A DNA stretch of 22,677 nt, taken from NCBI GenBank assembly GCA_025997215.1, contig BNUH01000043.1, positions 1 to 22,677 of the forward strand, read 5' to 3'. This DNA is from Clostridia bacterium (GTDB lineage Bacteria > Bacillota_A > Clostridia > Christensenellales > Aristaeellaceae). Of the stretch, positions 13,899 to 19,026 are shown in pieces (position 1 is the stretch's first letter; the number at the start of each line of letters is the position of its first letter). The notes under the pieces were generated by a model. The model saw only the letters and a list, made by a program, of their open reading frames with translations, made no database searches and was not told where the DNA came from. The position numbers and the translations under genes were made by a program.

Positions 13899-14344
13899 TT
13901 AAGGCTGACTTCGATATCCAAACGGTAAAGACGTACCTTAGCCAAGCGTTCAGGATCGACCAGAGAATCCAATCCAAACTCGAACAGGTGGAATCCCTGA
14001 AACATTTGGCAGCCATGGCAAATGCGGCGCTATCCGATATGCCGCGCAGTCCTAGCCCTAACCTCCAGCCGATGGAGTCCACAATTGTAAAGATCACCGA
14101 TCTGCAAGCGGAGATCAATAATGACATTGATATGCTGGTTGAGCTGAAGCGGGATTTGGTGTCGCTGATCAGGCAGGTGCAGAATACAGAGGAACAGACC
14201 TTGCTGGAGCAGCGGTACCTGTGCTTCAAGAAATGGGAGAAGATTGCTGTAGACATGAACTATAGCGTTCAGCACGTTTTCCGTTTGCATGACGCGGCGA
14301 TTTTAAGCGTAGCGCGCGACATGAGAGTAAATGTGATTGTTTGA
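13895..14344 (+). CDS. DUF1492 / sigma-70 region 4-like late regulator
   Basis: A 149-residue protein of the DUF1492 type: YLSQAFRIDQRIQSKLEQV, then a spacer, then a coiled-coil core (IVKITDLQAEINNDIDMLV), and a C-terminal helix-turn-helix like sigma region 4: LEQRYLCFKKWEKIAVDM, then YSVQHVFRLHDAAI. Such proteins (ArpU-like in position) close the early/replication operon of many Bacillota phages and are thought to switch on late genes. It starts at GTG 13895, overlapping the helicase stop (GTGA). A hairpin and a strong terminator follow, in keeping with the end of a transcription unit. Confidence 0.85.
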   Translation: MIKADFDIQTVKTYLSQAFRIDQRIQSKLEQVESLKHLAAMANAALSDMPRSPSPNLQPMESTIVKITDLQAEINNDIDMLVELKRDLVSLIRQVQNTEEQTLLEQRYLCFKKWEKIAVDMNYSVQHVFRLHDAAILSVARDMRVNVIV

Positions 14345-14399
14345 GAGGCTCCGTCAATGTTATTATTAGACTGCAGGCATTGAACCTGTGGTGAGCCTC
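14345..14399 (+). other. Closed 55-nt stem-loop element, start of late region
   Basis: GAGGCTC (14345-14351), starting right after the TGA of the DUF1492 gene, pairs perfectly with GAGCCTC (14393-14399). Inside, CAGG (14374-14377) pairs with CCTG (14385-14388), extended by two G-T pairs. The 7-bp closing stem and inner arm recall a tRNA shape, but it is too short and lacks D and T arms. It may be a regulatory RNA element next to the terminator. Confidence 0.4.
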
Positions 14400-14409
14400 C
14401 TCCTTTCGG

Positions 14410-14446
14410 GACCCGCGCTTAACTGGCAGCGCGGGTCTTTCTCTTT
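14410..14446 (+). terminator. Strong intrinsic terminator
   Basis: GACCCGCGCT (14410-14419) pairs perfectly with AGCGCGGGTC (14428-14437) over an 8-nt loop, followed by TTTCTCTTT (14438-14446). It separates the replication operon from the packaging/structural genes. Confidence 0.85.
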
Positions 14447-14467
14447 GCCAGCGTACAGGAGGGCGAC

Positions 14468-14767
14468 ATGACCGCACTCGACGGACTGAAACTCCGGCTC
14501 CAGATATTTGATGACGCGTTTGACGACGCGTTGAATAGCAGCCTTGACTCCGCTGCGGATTTCATTTGCATGTACACTGGCAGGGATTCAGTTCCTGAAG
14601 CGCTCAGCGTTGAACTGGTGCGTGTGGCGGCGATCATGTTTCGCCGACGCAACTCGCACGGATCGATCCCGCGCGGCAGCCTGGCAAACATACTCCCTGA
14701 CGACCTACACAAGGTGCTGAACCAATGGCGTGTACCAGTTGCCGGACGATTACGCCGCAGAGGTTGA
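14468..14767 (+). CDS. Head-tail connector-like protein (gp6 family)
   Basis: A 99-residue helical protein: LDGLKLRLQIF..DDALNSSLDSAADFICMYTGRDSVPEAL..VRVAAIMFRRR. The pattern of a first helix, a short acidic helix, a 'D/E-x-x-A-D-x-I' helix and a final arginine-rich helix matches the small gp6-like head-tail connector (Phage_connect_1) family. It has a good ribosome binding site (AGGAGGGCG). The next gene looks like a diverged copy. Connectors normally lie after the capsid gene, so their position before the HNH and terminase genes is unusual, and another role is possible. Confidence 0.55.
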   Translation: MTALDGLKLRLQIFDDAFDDALNSSLDSAADFICMYTGRDSVPEALSVELVRVAAIMFRRRNSHGSIPRGSLANILPDDLHKVLNQWRVPVAGRLRRRG

Positions 14768-14772
14768 TTGAT

Positions 14773-15012
14773 ATGTGTTCTTTGGATGCACTAAAGAAAC
14801 GGCTGGGTATTACGTCTGACAATGACGATCACGTGTTGATCCGCTGTATCGAAAGCGCAACAGCAATCGTTCGCGGACAATTTGAGGATATACCTGAAAC
14901 AAATAATAATTCGATACTCCAGGTGGCCGCTCTACTCTACCAGCGGCGCGCGATGTACTGTAGTGCTGAGCCACAAGAAGAATTGTTGTTAGGGAGTGAA
15001 CGCGGTGCCTAA
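14773..15012 (+). CDS. Second head-tail connector-like protein
   Basis: A 79-residue protein starting at ATG 14773 with AGAGGTTG upstream; the frame is open to 14725 but that part overlaps the previous gene. The sequence LDALKKRLGITSDNDDHVLI, then IESATAIVRGQFEDIP and QVAALLYQRRA, parallels the previous protein helix for helix (LDGLKLRL, LDSAADFI, VRVAAIMFRRR). This suggests tandem duplication within the gp6-like family. It overlaps the HNH gene by 8 bases. The exact role is uncertain, as for its neighbour. Confidence 0.55.
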   Translation: MCSLDALKKRLGITSDNDDHVLIRCIESATAIVRGQFEDIPETNNNSILQVAALLYQRRAMYCSAEPQEELLLGSERGA

Positions 15013-15352
15013 CAAACCGAAACACCCATGCAATTACCCAGGTTGCCCAGCGCTGACACACGATCGTTTCTGCGACACCCATGCAGTAACGAACGCGCGG
15101 CAGTATGAGCAGTATAACCGTTCTCCCGATACATGGAAGCTATACGGTAGGACGTGGCGCGCGGTACGCAAGCGGTTCCTGATCGAACACTCGTTATGCG
15201 AAGAGTGCGAGCGGAGAGGGCGGTTGGCACCAGCACATGAGGTTCATCACAAGATCCCGCTGCGCGATGGCGGTACCCATGATCCGATGAACCTCGCTGC
15301 GTTATGTAAACCGTGTCACAGTGCGATTACGATTCGGGAGTCACGATTGTAA
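15005..15352 (+). CDS. Phage HNH endonuclease (packaging type)
   Basis: A 115-residue HNH enzyme of the kind encoded just before terminase in HK97-like phages. It opens with PNKPKHPCNYPGCPALTHDR and a zinc-like set of cysteines (C9, C14, C23 and later C65, C68, C101, C104). The active site is VHHKIPL (H81-H82), N96 and H105 of CKPCHSAI. GTG 15005 is favoured: it gives the family's usual MPN...KPC-YPGC beginning and is 9 nt from AGGGAG; GTG 14996 is too close. In related phages this nuclease works with terminase at the cos site, which fits the G-rich element found downstream, now separated by a toxin-antitoxin module. Confidence 0.92.
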   Translation: MPNKPKHPCNYPGCPALTHDRFCDTHAVTNARQYEQYNRSPDTWKLYGRTWRAVRKRFLIEHSLCEECERRGRLAPAHEVHHKIPLRDGGTHDPMNLAALCKPCHSAITIRESRL

Positions 15353-15364
15353 TGATTGTGTCGA

Positions 15365-15814
15365 TCAAACCTCTGAGTTGACGTCTGTCTCCAAGGCAAT
15401 CTCAGCAAGCCGCTTGACAAAAACATCAGGATGGATTGAGGTCACTGGTGAATTGACATAGTCTTTCTCGTTGCGAGTAACGATACAATCTACTTTATGC
15501 CGTTTTGCGCATTGAGCTAAAACGGCGTCCTCATAATCATGCATCGATAGATCGAAAGCTAAATCGCAGTCGGATGCGGTTACATCCAGCACAGGCAGCA
15601 GCATGATTATCTTGCGCACGGCTTCTCTCGTATTGTTACGATCTTTGAGATGCCGGCGCAGTAAGTAATAAATATCTGTGACACTCGTTGCTGTAACGTG
15701 AGCGTCAATCTTATGCTCCGCCGCTAGCAGGATGATATCCTGCGCCGCGCGATTAAACGGTTCACGATTTTCCAACGCGTCTATCACGATGTTCGTATCA
15801 AGTAAGACGTTCAT
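15365..15814 (-). CDS. PIN-domain toxin (VapC-like ribonuclease)
   Basis: A 149-residue PIN protein. It starts with MNVLLDTNIVIDAL, giving the acidic residues D6 and D12; the central HDYEDAVLA gives E95 and D96; the C-terminal IVTRNEKDY gives D118. These are the metal-binding positions of PIN ribonucleases of the PIN_3/COG1569 type. The gene overlaps the upstream Phd-like antitoxin by 17 bases, the classical arrangement of a toxin-antitoxin pair. It runs opposite to the surrounding phage genes, so it is an insertion or a moron gene pair. The target RNA is unknown. Confidence 0.85.
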   Translation of the reverse strand: MNVLLDTNIVIDALENREPFNRAAQDIILLAAEHKIDAHVTATSVTDIYYLLRRHLKDRNNTREAVRKIIMLLPVLDVTASDCDLAFDLSMHDYEDAVLAQCAKRHKVDCIVTRNEKDYVNSPVTSIHPDVFVKRLAEIALETDVNSEV

Positions 15815-16028
15815 GCCGCGCGAGACGCTCCTCTCTCACTTGATTGAGCGAGACACCGTCGTTTGGAATGATTCCAAATAGCGACTTAGCCATGGATACG
15901 CGGTCATCTTCGCAGTTGGATACCTTTGCGATGCACTTACCGTTCTTTGTGATAAAGACTTCTTGCATTGCAACCATTGCAAGATACTTACCCATGTTGT
16001 TCTTGAACTCCGTGGCGGTAACCTGCAT
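15798..16028 (-). CDS. Phd/YefM-like antitoxin
   Basis: A 76-residue antitoxin: MQVTATEFKNNMGKYLAMV followed by EVFITKNGKCIAKVSN, the standard Phd/YefM DNA-binding N-terminal fold, then a polar C-terminal toxin-binding tail ending in RLARHERLT. The ribosome binding site on the minus strand is AAGGGGGAA (16034-16042). The gene is first in a two-gene operon with the PIN toxin. Antitoxins of this fold usually repress their own promoter, and paired operator-like repeats lie at the promoter described next. Confidence 0.87.
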   Translation of the reverse strand: MQVTATEFKNNMGKYLAMVAMQEVFITKNGKCIAKVSNCEDDRVSMAKSLFGIIPNDGVSLNQVREERLARHERLT

Positions 16029-16069
16029 GCCGATTCCCCCTTACCATATCGATAGACATAGCTTATTTT

Positions 16070-16115
16070 AGTATAGCTGAATCGAACGGTTTATTCAAGG
16101 TTAATCGAACGGTTT
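16070..16115 (-). promoter_or_regulatory. Toxin-antitoxin promoter with two operator-like repeats
   Basis: On the minus strand TTGAAT (16098-16093) and TATACT (16075-16070) form a promoter with an exact 17-nt spacer, each hexamer matching consensus well. A 13-bp direct repeat AATCGAACGGTTT (plus strand) lies at 16080-16092, filling the spacer, and at 16103-16115, just upstream of the -35. The 23-bp period places both on about the same face of the helix, as expected for cooperative autorepression by the antitoxin. Confidence 0.75.
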
Positions 16116-16212
16116 GTTTTTTTTGGGGGTAGGGGTGGGGGTATCAGATCTCCAGAAACTTCCAATCCGGACAACGCGTCGGCGTCGCGCATGTGAAAAC
16201 GCCGATTCAAAC
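16116..16212 (+). other. Candidate phage cos/packaging-site region, left half
   Basis: A G-rich tract (GGGGGTAGGGGTGGGGGTATC, 16125-16145 approx.) is followed by AGATCTCCAGAAACTTCCAATC. I recall a similar G-tract followed by GGTATCAAATCTC between the HNH and terminase small subunit genes of related prophages, where cos is expected. The element would continue at 18107 on the other side of the IS110 insertion. No coding sequence is convincing here. Assignment as cos is inference. Confidence 0.4.
16209..16212. repeat. IS110 border, right-end side (shared core AAAC)
   Basis: Plus-strand CGATTCAAAC (16203-16212) is phage target sequence up to and including the core. It is identical to the right target guide of the bridge RNA (minus strand at 17980-17971). 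ACCTGCT (16211-16217) is core plus element end and is identical to the left donor guide region. Confidence 0.75.
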
Positions 16213-16258
16213 CTGCTATTAAAGGTCAAGCGGAAATTGATGGAAAGGAACGCTAATA

Positions 16259-16276
16259 TCGCTCCTACGGGAGCGA
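16259..16276. other. UACG-capped hairpin in the IS110 right end
   Basis: TCGCTCC (16259-16265) pairs with GGAGCGA (16270-16276) around TACG, a UNCG-type tetraloop closed by C-G and thus very stable as RNA of the plus strand. Its role is unknown. Confidence 0.5.
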
Positions 16277-16337
16277 GAGTTTATCGCTTCTACGCCTGCC
16301 GGTTTGTTCCCGTTGCATAATGAGAATAAATAGAAAC

Positions 16338-16361
16338 GGGGTAAGCATAATTACTTACCCC
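16338..16361. other. Hairpin in the IS110 right end
   Basis: GGGGTAAG (16338-16345) pairs perfectly with CTTACCCC (16354-16361) over an 8-nt loop. It may stop transcription entering or leaving the element; no clear T-run follows on either strand. Confidence 0.4.
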
Positions 16362-16546
16362 AAACCGACTAGGCGGCTGAGCGCGCTCGGGTCGCTCTCC
16401 AGCGTTTCCCTATCCTCGCGCAGCAACCTTAGTATGTGTGTTTAAGATAATGCGTATGCTGAAAATTCTGAAAGGGGATTGAAAATGAATTGTGTATAAT
16501 ATATAGCAAAGCTAAGCGGCACATATATCGTTTTTACCACTTTAGC

Positions 16547-16564
16547 GGATGGCATTAGCCATCC
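16547..16564 (-). terminator. Hairpin downstream of the IS110 transposase
   Basis: GGATGGC (16547-16553) and GCCATCC (16558-16564) form a perfect 7-bp stem with a 4-nt loop, 33 bases after the transposase stop on its strand. The sequence after it has no strong T-run, so it is a weak terminator or a mRNA-stabilising hairpin. Confidence 0.45.
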
Positions 16565-16596
16565 TTATCGCCTACAACGCTGTGAGTAGGGATTAA

Positions 16597-17823
16597 TTAA
16601 GCTTCAGCCTTAACCTCAACCTCCAGTTGTTCTAGGTACTCCTTGACACGTGCATAGTAAATGCGTAAGAATTTCGTACATCCCGCGGTCATATAGCAGT
16701 AGTAATTTTTACCCTCAGCGCGTTTCCGGTCAAGGAAGTTAAAGACCGGATCATCTGCGTTTCCACGTTGCAGTTGACCGATCATTACTTGAAATAGAGT
16801 CCTTCGCAAGTGTGGTGACCCTTTCTTGCTTACAGAGCGGGATTTGGCCTCAAATTTCCCAGATTGGAATGGAGGGCTTTCAAGACCCGCATAGCACACC
16901 AGCGACCCTTTCTTATTAAAGCGCCGGATGTTACCGATCTCAGCCATCAACTGTGGTCCCAATAGCTCGCCAACTCCTTGCATGCCCATTACTATGGGAT
17001 ATTCGGGCAACTGTTCCGCGATAGATTTCATATGTTCGGCAAACGCGGCTTTGCTTTCCGACACAGCGTTCAGCTGTTTGATAGCGTGTTGGATCAGAAA
17101 CTGGGTCGTATCATCTTTAGGCAGAAGACAAGGGTGACCACAAGCGGCCATATAGATGTCCTCGGCTTTACTCTTTTTGTAGCTATAATGGTTCGCTTTG
17201 CACCACGCTAGGTAGCGTTCGTCAAACTCACCTGGGCTTCCGTTGCGCACGCACTCACAGTGCCAGAATTCCATAGCGAAATCATGCCATTTCTCATGGC
17301 CGTCGCTTTTTCGAGGTCCTGATGTAAATAGATCCGATACTCCCGGAAATGTTTGTTCGACCAGGATCTTGAAGTTGTTAATCAGCATTGCACGCAGACT
17401 ACTGTACTTCCAGTACTGACGCGTTACCAGTTTTAATTGCTTGCGAAGATCCTCCTCTGGCAACCAGCGGCGTAGTTTGAGCCACTTATCCAGACCATAG
17501 TTGGCGATCTTAAGAGCATCTTTTGGATCTGTCTTGATCCTGCGTATGGTGTCATTGTTGTAGTCGTGAATGAGCTTTGAATGCACGATACTAACAAACA
17601 TCCCAGCCTCGTGTAACGCTGCTGCAATCGGATAGAAATACATACTCGTGTACTCCATGACTACCTTGGTTTCGCCCGATAAAGTGCCCAACCTTTCCAC
17701 CAGTCTTGTGATTGCGTCAGTGGTATGTGCAACCTCGTACGGTGAGATCACAACTTTACCTAACGGCTGCACGGCTGCTGCAGTGCTTTTACCTTTTGAT
17801 ACGTCAATGCCAACCACGTTCAT
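16597..17823 (-). CDS. IS110-family transposase (bridge-RNA-guided recombinase)
   Basis: A 408-residue protein. The N-terminal RuvC-like DEDD domain shows D7 (VGIDVSKGKS), E57 (VMEYTS), D99 and D102 (KTDPKDA). A helical coiled part follows. The C-terminal Transposase_20 domain begins at MQGVGELLGPQLMAEIGNIR (281-300) and holds YAGLESPPFQSGKF with S321, the likely catalytic serine, then KKGSPHLRR. All catalytic residues are present, so it should be active. The start ATG 17823 has GGAGGGAAC upstream on the minus strand; the 10 extra upstream codons are non-coding. The bridge RNA lies upstream of the gene, as in the IS110 subgroup rather than IS1111. Confidence 0.95.
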   Translation of the reverse strand: MNVVGIDVSKGKSTAAAVQPLGKVVISPYEVAHTTDAITRLVERLGTLSGETKVVMEYTSMYFYPIAAALHEAGMFVSIVHSKLIHDYNNDTIRRIKTDPKDALKIANYGLDKWLKLRRWLPEEDLRKQLKLVTRQYWKYSSLRAMLINNFKILVEQTFPGVSDLFTSGPRKSDGHEKWHDFAMEFWHCECVRNGSPGEFDERYLAWCKANHYSYKKSKAEDIYMAACGHPCLLPKDDTTQFLIQHAIKQLNAVSESKAAFAEHMKSIAEQLPEYPIVMGMQGVGELLGPQLMAEIGNIRRFNKKGSLVCYAGLESPPFQSGKFEAKSRSVSKKGSPHLRRTLFQVMIGQLQRGNADDPVFNFLDRKRAEGKNYYCYMTAGCTKFLRIYYARVKEYLEQLEVEVKAEA

Positions 17824-17879
17824 CTTGTTCCCTCCTAAGATTGATTGTCGCAATCGGCTGCCACCGTGTTTCTTGTTGC

Positions 17880-18088
17880 CTATTCAATTTGCTGGGTTAC
17901 TCGAACGCAGGGCAGTGCCCTATGGTTCCACCTGCTGAATACGAACGCCGCAATAAGAGGGTGGCTGGCAGTTTGAATCGCGGACGCTTATGTCCAACAC
18001 CCGTATACGCCAGGCCAATTGCCCTCTTATTATGGCTTAGGCTTGTAAAATGAATCAGCGCACGGCTGGATGTCGCGTTCTGTTTCAC
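17880..18088 (-). ncRNA. Candidate IS110 bridge RNA with readable target and donor guides
   Basis: Minus-strand folding shows two internal-loop hairpins. Target loop: closing stem AATAAGAGGG/CCCTCTTATT (10 bp; 18031-18022 with 17961-17952), an inner stem with one bulge, guide GGGTGTT (18002-17996), apical GGAC/GTCC, and guide CGATTCAAAC (17980-17971). Donor loop: stem TATTCA/TGAATA (17941-17936 with 17886-17881), guide AGCAGGT (17936-17930), apical AGGGC-ACT-GCCCT (17921-17909), and guide AGCAAA (17893-17888). The target guides equal the flanks at 18110-18104 (minus) and 16203-16212 (plus); the donor guides match the element's ends. The 5' and 3' boundaries are estimates from the promoter and fold. 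Confidence 0.85.
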
Positions 18089-18094
18089 TGATAT

Positions 18095-18100
18095 ATAGTA
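18095..18100 (-). promoter_or_regulatory. -10 half of a promoter completed only in the IS110 circle
   Basis: TACTAT (18100-18095, minus strand) lies at the left end. TTGACC (16229-16224, minus strand) lies near the right end. When the ends join at the core in a circular intermediate, the two are exactly 17 nt apart. This is the junction-promoter arrangement known for IS110-type elements and would drive the bridge RNA and transposase. Confidence 0.75.
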
Positions 18101-18145
18101 GCAAACACCCCATTAACCCCAGCCCCCGACTAGGAGATGAGTTTT

Positions 18146-18601
18146 ATGGCTAAAGACGGCACCAATCGAGGCGGTCGGCGAGTAAAAGCGGGCACGAAAC
18201 CAGCCACTCTGGTTGATAAGCTCGCCTCTGGTAAATCTGCAAAGGCGCTCAAGCCATACTCGTTTCAGCCTGATACATTACCCGAAGCAGACGATTTGTC
18301 CGATGCCGCTGATCTTATCGGCACAGATATGCCGCCACCAAGCGAATATCTGTCTGCACGCCAAAAGGACGGTAAGCCGCTAGGTGCGGACGCATTGTAT
18401 GCTGAAACTTGGCAGTGGCTGAAGGAACGTGGTTGCGAAAAGTTCCTCAGTCCCAGGCTCATTGAAGCGTACTCGCAGGCGTTTGCTCGTTACATCCAAT
18501 CAGCTGCGGGTCCGCCTTCGACGAAAGTACCAGCTGGGTTAATGAGAATCACATCTTCGCTCGGCAAGTCGAAGTCCTCAAAACATGGCATACCGGACTG
18601 A
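18146..18601 (+). pseudogene. Terminase small subunit (P27-like), truncated by a chimeric join
   Basis: I chose ATG 18146, 9 nt after AGGAG (18132-18136); ATG 18137 is too close. The start MAKDGTNRGGRRVKAG and the motifs DMPPPSEYLSARQKDG and TWQWLKERGCEKFLSPRLI, ending ARYIQ at about residue 117, are typical of the phage terminase small subunit that binds the packaging site. After ARYIQ the expected C-terminal part is missing; the frame runs 33 unrelated codons (antisense to nothing known, but overlapping metK sequence in another frame) to TGA. So about a third or more of the protein is lost and packaging should fail. The IS110 element lies 40 bases upstream. Confidence 0.85.
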
Positions 18602-19026
18602 CCGGACGCAAGCTCATGTGTGACACTTACGGTGGCCTCGCCCGTCATGGCGGCGGCGCGCTAAGCGGTAAGGATCCAACCAAGGTCGACCGTACCGGCG
18701 CGTACATGGCGAGGCATATCGCTAAGGCTATCGTGATGGCTAAGCTCGCCCATCGGTGTGAAGTGGCGTTGTCATACGCCATTGGAAAGGCATGTCCTGT
18801 TGCCGTTGATGTAACTACGTTCGGTACAGGCACTGTTCCCGACGATAACCTTCGCCAGGCGATTCTTTCCGTATTCGATTTGCGTCCGGCGGCTGTCATA
18901 GACCGCTTTCACCTGCGAAAATTCGACTACGCCAAGACCGCTGAAAACGGACACTTCACGTGCCATGATTACCCATGGGAGCGAGTAGACGAAACAACGA
19001 TGTCGGCGCTATGGAGGTGTGTATGA
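18513..19026 (+). pseudogene. metK: C-terminal half of phage-type S-adenosylmethionine synthetase
   Basis: From about 18513 the frame (different from the terminase frame) reads FDESTSWVN, then a degenerate stretch, then clear Met[65 protein letters not shown] and DYPWERVD. MetK makes S-adenosylmethionine from ATP and methionine. The N-terminal half with the ATP loop is absent, and the segment between VN and TGL does not match the family, so the product is dead. Phage metK genes, usually near a DNA methylase and terminase, have the LMCDTYGGL variant seen here, so I take this as a phage gene and not the host copy. It stops at TGA 19024-19026. Confidence 0.85.

Follow-up and report, generated by a model that had tools for sequence, protein, structure and literature searches.

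A predicted bridge-RNA loop matches both sides of the insertion site of an IS110-type element beside a phage terminase gene

As described in PMC11208160 and PMC11208158, IS621 of E. coli combines a RuvC-Tnp recombinase bearing the residues D, E, D, D and S with a left-end RNA that contains a 5' stem-loop, a target loop and a donor loop, the guides of which overlap at the core. Promoter-like boxes lie across its joined ends. Mutation of D11, E60, D102, D105 or S241 abolished recombination, while GT, AT and TT cores also supported it (PMC11208158). For the seekRNA elements of the IS1111/IS110 type, PMC11187229 describes an RNA that originates in the noncoding region and in which two stretches match the target; in the IS1111 type this RNA usually lies downstream of the gene, and the inverted repeats are subterminal. 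Bridge RNAs, the covariation of targets and donors and the readability of targets in natural IS110 elements are already published (PMC11208160, PMC11187229).

Here we analyse a 22,677-nucleotide stretch of a Clostridia bacterium contig (the window). Its positions 16211-18104, minus strand, constitute a complete IS110-type element with an intact recombinase and a bridge-RNA-like hairpin upstream. In its predicted features the element resembles IS621 (recombinase residues, left-end RNA with overlapping guides, boxes across the joined ends) and the seekRNA elements (two target-matching stretches). Unlike IS621, it has a distant recombinase, a likely TT core instead of CT, a right target guide that matches 8 nt (10 with the element's own GT) instead of the native 4, and a phage motif as its target. 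Strands of the predicted bridge-RNA loop match both sides of the site, and the element was very probably inserted by RNA-guided recombination. Direct sequence support comes from the intact recombinase, the covarying stems, the matches to the element's own flanks and own ends, and the uninterrupted sites in other phages. The guide RNA would have chosen the current site, as is known for other family members: its target loop would read the two sides of the site, and its donor loop would do likewise with the joined ends. New here are the predicted target, which is a motif that phages conserve between their HNH and terS genes, and a relative (L006) with three target loops. The element and its predicted RNA comprise the following features.

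16211..18104, minus strand: IS110-type element, left end 18104, right end 16211, one core dinucleotide counted
16597..17823, minus strand: IS110 recombinase, 408 aa, intact (Pfam, NCBIfam, alignment)
18048..18089, minus strand: 5' stem-loop of the predicted bridge RNA (minimum-energy fold)
17943..18037, minus strand: target-binding-loop hairpin (78.8 bits to covariance model R1; compensatory changes)
17996..18002, minus strand: left target guide GGGTGTT, identical to the left flank
17971..17980, minus strand: right target guide, CGATTCAA plus constant AC, identical to 16203-16212 of the plus strand
17930..17936, minus strand: left donor guide AGCAGGT of the predicted donor-binding loop, identical to the right end at 16217-16211 (minus)
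17889..17893, minus strand: right donor guide AGCAA, reverse complement of the left end TTGCT at 18104-18100 (minus)

The recombinase matches the Pfam families PF01548 (E 8.3e-27) and PF02371 (E 4.6e-17) and reaches 179.7 bits with the NCBIfam IS110 model NF033542, passing the cut-off of 140. It has the domains of the IS110 group, a DEDD RuvC-like N-terminal domain and a C-terminal Transposase_20 domain with the catalytic Ser. Residues D7, E57, D99, D102 and S321 align to D11, E60, D102, D105 and S241 of IS621 (we counted a two-residue offset between the structure chain and the numbering of the paper), and all five positions are invariant among 32 aligned sequences, the window included. A phmmer comparison with the IS621 structure 8wt6 gives E 3e-11. 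The closest recombinases reach 50-55% identity in the collections of phages, plasmids, viruses and species genomes and 66% among proteins, where P0003-P0010 are 62-66% identical. The TIGR-Tas model NF052498 matches the C-terminal domain weakly, at 32.7 bits, below its cut-off of 100. One homologue of 606 aa (P0002) contains a large internal tandem duplication of the N-terminal part of the recombinase, which is either real or an assembly error.

Searches of the phage, plasmid, viral and species-genome collections returned no close DNA copy of the element. The nucleotide collections gave two partial phage matches (L023 and L024), the plasmid collection no nucleotide match, and the phage collection no match for window 14000-16210; a scan of viral-contig proteins with the window recombinase as single query found nothing. 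The suggestion of the first-pass annotation that the element is undescribed holds for its DNA in these collections, but not for the mechanism.

The two target guides are the facing strands of one internal loop of the 78.8-bit hairpin. Over both strands of the window, CGATTCAAAC occurs twice, at 17980-17971 (minus) and 16203-16212 (plus), and GGGTGTT seven times, 18002-17996 and 18110-18104 (both minus) included; the strings and the loop are as the first-pass annotation had placed them, and its interpretation, an IS110 element carrying at its left end a bridge-RNA-like structure with a target loop that reads the element's own site, is supported. The constant AC of the right target guide faces the element's own GT. 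The donor-loop strands, absent from that annotation, match the element's own ends, and the left donor guide is GCAGGT-like in relatives as well. The predicted RNA has two internal loops, target and donor, with a left and a right guide each, the pairing being read from sequence.

Relatives were gathered through a genome scan, a viral scan with alignment, two phage records and genome searches. The 54 parsed loci, several of them copies from one genome or sister genomes, encode recombinases 29-55% identical, and most share the RNA architecture and ends. Their cores, as read here, are CT or TT, and the window's target was not seen among them. Their right end reads TTGACTTTTnTTAGCAGG(T) followed by the core and is conserved clade-wide as GCAGGT. 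We set the element's ends by this conserved right end and by the match between donor guide and left end. An exact empty site of one relative confirms the rule, with the GT before the core belonging to the element. Since both lines of evidence assign this GT to the element, positions 16212-16211 of the window are element and not flank. The 10-nt identity on the right side, proposed earlier as a flank match, stands as an identity but includes these two element bases; the flank matched by the right guide would be GAATCG plus the core, and the true right match TT+GAATCG. The core had been placed within the GTT overlap of the guides; given the right-end rule from relatives, it is most likely TT (16210-16209 and 18104-18103), with a register uncertain by one base because of a TTT run. 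Such a core is not strange, since IS621 tolerates it. The 14-nt target would be GGGTGTTTGAATC, and the uninterrupted form of the site GGGTGTTTGAATCG.

18103..18104, minus strand: likely core TT at the left junction (right donor guide AGCAA complements TTGCT)
16209..16210, minus strand: likely core TT at the right junction (directly after the conserved GCAGGT)
18105..18110, minus strand: left target flank GGGTGT (sequence)
16203..16208, minus strand: right target flank GAATCG (sequence)
16224..16229, minus strand: -35-like TTGACC at the right end (predicted from sequence)
18095..18100, minus strand: -10-like TACTAT at the left end (predicted from sequence)

Joining the ends would place the -35-like box opposite the -10-like box, giving TTGACC-17 nt-TACTAT across the circle junction, which by eye is promoter-like. 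Compared with 15 relatives whose right end could be read, the noncoding stretch behind the recombinase gene (16231-16596) has about 240-260 nt more, and its fold is unusually good (z -4.2). Rfam gave no match for window 16200-18110 at E 1, and none anywhere in the window at gathering scores.

The empty site comes from a group of five copies in one genome (G150), which differ by 0-2 bases in 1592 and have identical guides, the left GACTCCTTTCTT and the right reading GTCTCACGTAC. Their flanks are as follows.

L025: left TCCTCCTTTCCT, right GTCTCATGCG
L064: left CACCCCCTTTCT, right GTCTCGCGTC
L068: left CGCTCCTTTCAT, right GTCTCACGTA
L069: left TTCCTCCTTTCT, right GTCTGAGGAG
L070: left TCTCCTTTCTCT, right GTCTCACATG

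Copies with the same loops are not found at unrelated flanks here. CYCCTTTC is present in all five left flanks, which the left guide fits, and the right guide fits four of the five (GTCTCRC or GTCTCAT), L069 having only GTCT. The uninterrupted site of L070 is found in the sister genome G393 as CTCCTTTCT-CT-CACATGG, with the left 600 nt 99.7% and about 600 nt on the right 94.5% identical to the L070 flanks. The comparison leaves one shared CT core and gives the preceding GT to the element, and the correction of the window's right end rests on this assignment. For the empty site of L069, no left-flank homologue was found in G393-G396, and only short matches in G397 and G074. Among the near-identical copies L025, L062, L068 and L070, the core is shifted by 0-2 bases away from the left-guide match, and AT takes the place of CT at one left junction; these shifted junctions are possibly natural slips in register.

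The element appears to be embedded in a bacteriophage remnant, on the minus strand between two phage genes.

14996..15352, plus strand: phage HNH endonuclease gene (PF01844, E 1.6e-14)
18137..18601, plus strand: phage small terminase (terS) gene beside the target (tblastn to phage relatives, one annotated as terminase small subunit)

The terS gene has no Pfam or NCBIfam match. Its homology to phages stops at residue 122, the frame after it (18503-19026) encodes only the C-terminal domain of MetK, and the frames beyond resemble, by eye, an oxidoreductase and transport permeases; the prophage is therefore likely truncated at 18503-19026. Between the HNH gene and the target, 15365-16029 of the minus strand contains a PIN-domain gene (PF13470), preceded by a short frame that by eye is antitoxin-like.

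At the corresponding place, terS relatives without the element carry TCAAAC/G. A first phage set used nine of 13 terS loci (L078 and L088 seem to repeat L077 and L086; L082 and L087 have no such motif in the stretch examined). When the right flank was slid along the nine contigs, the best score was at zero offset (69/144; next 40); the wrong join, which reads on into the element's right end, also scores 69/144, the true join being favoured by L076, L077, L079 and L086 and the wrong one by L080, L081, L083, L084 and L085. The left side scores 97/198, a value reached in 2 of 5000 shuffles, versus 66 when read back into the element.

A larger set was obtained with the pattern RTTCAAACNCCCNATTAACCC, which is present in 23 viral contigs, about 1 being expected by chance in our estimate. 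A terS homologue (62-67% identity) starts within about 130 nt downstream in every one of them, an HNH homologue lies upstream in 21, and a recombinase relative was found in none within up to 3 kb on either side. Ten contigs read 13 of the 14 target bases, ten read 12 and three read 11, an agreement due partly to selection, since most of the target is contained in the pattern, which has no bearing on the outer flanks or on the neighbouring terS and HNH genes. Over 19 distinct sequences, the left 40 nt outside the pattern give a mean of 18.3 matches versus 10.9 +/- 2.2 when shuffled (a score reached in 2 of 2000 shuffles) and 13.0 with the wrong join. On the right, 30 nt with the pattern included give 15.6 versus 11.2 for the wrong join, and the 17 nt beyond the pattern 3.8 matches, which is about chance. 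In L155, the best among six of these contigs, CGCGGATTCAAAC and ACCCGATTAACCCCA stand on the two sides of the junction where the window has CGCCGATTCAAAC and ACCCCATTAACCCCA. The borders expected for insertion at one core dinucleotide are found in both cases: the empty site of L070 is exact and shares CT, and the uninterrupted phage versions of the window's site are diverged but collinear at both junctions. A viral contig (L022) recovered with a 19-nt pattern of the joined flanks, for which we estimate about 0.4 chance matches assuming about 60 Gb, was set aside, as there is no meaningful homology around its match.

Judged from these alignments, phages conserve the target between HNH and terS as the plus-strand motif RTTCAAACnCCC, of which the guides would read the local version. 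The cos site is usually placed between the HNH and terS genes, and the motif is likely a part of this packaging region, its identity as cos being suggested by analogy. In HK97, according to PMC11331095, the small terminase requires 15 bp of sequence that begin 15 bp from the point of cos cleavage, a cleavage which the HNH protein stimulates.

The rearranged look of the phage remnant beyond terS would suit a different history, in which guided movement was lost and prophage recombination brought the element here, its guide matching an old site in another genome. However, the recombinase is intact, and the collinearity of both junctions with uninterrupted phages next to terS indicates that the insertion happened in this phage locus, which makes such a history very unlikely.

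The plan of the target-loop hairpin is common to relatives: an outer stem, an inner stem (CTGRC/GYCAG-like), the left guide, a small GGAC/GTCC-like hairpin and the right guide. Model R1 was trained on 28 elements, the window sequence among them, and a check with it, as the first-pass annotation had proposed, bears the structure out. Compensatory changes are present in the 28 elements, 15 of the 22 target-loop pairs having changes on both sides. Of 613 cells, 91.7% are paired, versus 80.6 +/- 0.8 when shuffled, and the covariation score of the target-loop part is 0.446 versus 0.213 +/- 0.013 shuffled and at most 0.138 in slid controls. This part of the RNA has the conserved, covarying secondary structure of a bridge RNA. 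Within the window R1 finds the known hairpin alone, the next match having 12.8 bits. It matches 46 of 70 sources, the window included; the other 24 are 16 partial or distant recombinase loci and 8 phage loci without the element. Among 391 genomes from the same class as G001, which is titled as a Clostridiales MAG, it has at least 39 matches in at least 23 genomes, a lower bound because few candidates were scored per genome.

The position of the RNA also bears on whether the element is of the seekRNA (IS1111) type instead. A 5-nt inverted pair, TAGCA/TGCTA, seen by eye at the circle junction, speaks for this assignment, but the RNA region sits upstream of the gene (loop 17943-18037, ATG at 17823), which is the IS110 arrangement in PMC11187229. 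The single target-loop match in the window, with a model trained on IS110-type loops, is this upstream one, and the NCBIfam IS110 model is above its cut-off. We regard an IS1111 assignment as highly improbable and treat the element as IS110-type.

Across the relatives, in a test that the first-pass annotation had proposed, the agreement of guides with their own flanks is far above that with swapped ones. Beyond the core, the right guide matches its own flank at 108 of 174 bases (62%) in 29 elements, the window included, versus 32.5% +/- 3.4% with swapped flanks (maximum 44.8% in 2000 shuffles). This test comprised 41 elements, 37 of them distinct and 29 scored; L002, L008, L017, L025, L062, L064, L069 and L070 were unreadable by regular expression, several of which match well by eye, while L069 does not. 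The left guide matches its own flank at a mean of 7.89/10 versus 5.29 +/- 0.19 swapped (maximum 5.96; 45 distinct elements, window included). The right donor guide finds an exact 5-mer in its own left end in 28 of 38 distinct elements (window included), versus 7.0 +/- 2.2 swapped (maximum 15). The window's pair AGCAA/TTGCT follows this rule and occurs in no other row of the donor-guide test. Poor matches are found on the right side in L024 (0/6), L061 and L065 (1/6) and L011, L015 and L032 (2/6), and on the left side in L008 (3/10), L072 (4/10) and L029 (5/10).

L030, L038, L042, L059 and L073 were left out of all three tests as misparsed or partial. L006 was excluded from the left-guide and donor-guide tests and lacks a readable right end for the right-guide test; L002 has no placed left end in the left-guide test, nor L031 in the donor-guide test. 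The donor-guide search stretch was shortened for a few loci (e.g. L027 and L028), which counts against a match. Left-end positions in the left-guide and donor-guide tests were set by motifs chosen after reading the loci and are not blind, the swapped controls being equally free.

In the learnt register, the window's right guide matches 6/6 bases beyond the core, the best of 44 other right flanks reaching 5. Its left guide reaches 7/10 with its own flank, against a maximum of 5 with those of other elements; the left guides of three other elements likewise reach 7 with the window's left flank, which means that the left match is not unique by itself. Together, the two matches go beyond chance, as the first-pass annotation had argued. 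A chance similarity between hairpin and neighbourhood, to which the equal scores of these three guides and a left match just 7 nt long (the word has seven occurrences in the window) would lend themselves, is hardly credible against a 10-nt right match in fixed register, near-identical copies at matching sites and dozens of relatives far above swapped controls that already contradict it.

With RNA-guided insertion as the preferred reading, it is conceivable, if doubtful, that the element is naturally programmed to a packaging motif common to a large group of phages, homing into incoming or resident phages and riding in or disabling them, and that relatives with several target loops such as L006 might address more than one site. 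Three viral-contig patterns yielded no second element with this target: the one for other elements with the same right guide retrieved seven contigs, all of one unrelated sequence without a recombinase relative, and those for a further IS110 copy at this phage site retrieved none. Among the titles and abstract starts listed for open-licence literature, no report was found tying IS110 guides to a phage terminase region. The conserved target motif next to the terminase gene points to a role in phage biology that can be tested.

In this IS110 lineage, which is far removed from IS621, the locus provides a guide-target pair that can be read, and its relatives add dozens of natural guide-flank pairs, an exact empty site and a searchable structure model. 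The natural pairs are raw material for pairing rules beyond IS621, including guide length, TT versus CT cores and register slips.

The viral contig L006 carries three target-loop hairpins around one recombinase gene, at 1171-1264, 1342-1433 and 2770-2866 (61.0, 49.4 and 26.7 bits), one of them downstream of the gene. The first is apparently not followed by a donor loop, and the usual right end is missing; the arrangement is either a guide array or the nested remnants of several elements. By eye, the left flanks of many relatives are ribosome-binding-site-like (antisense CACCTCCT and CTCCTTTC) or terminator-like (a hairpin followed by GCTTTTT). Because so many relatives sit in such sequences, many guides of the window's IS110 clade seem to address generic expression signals.
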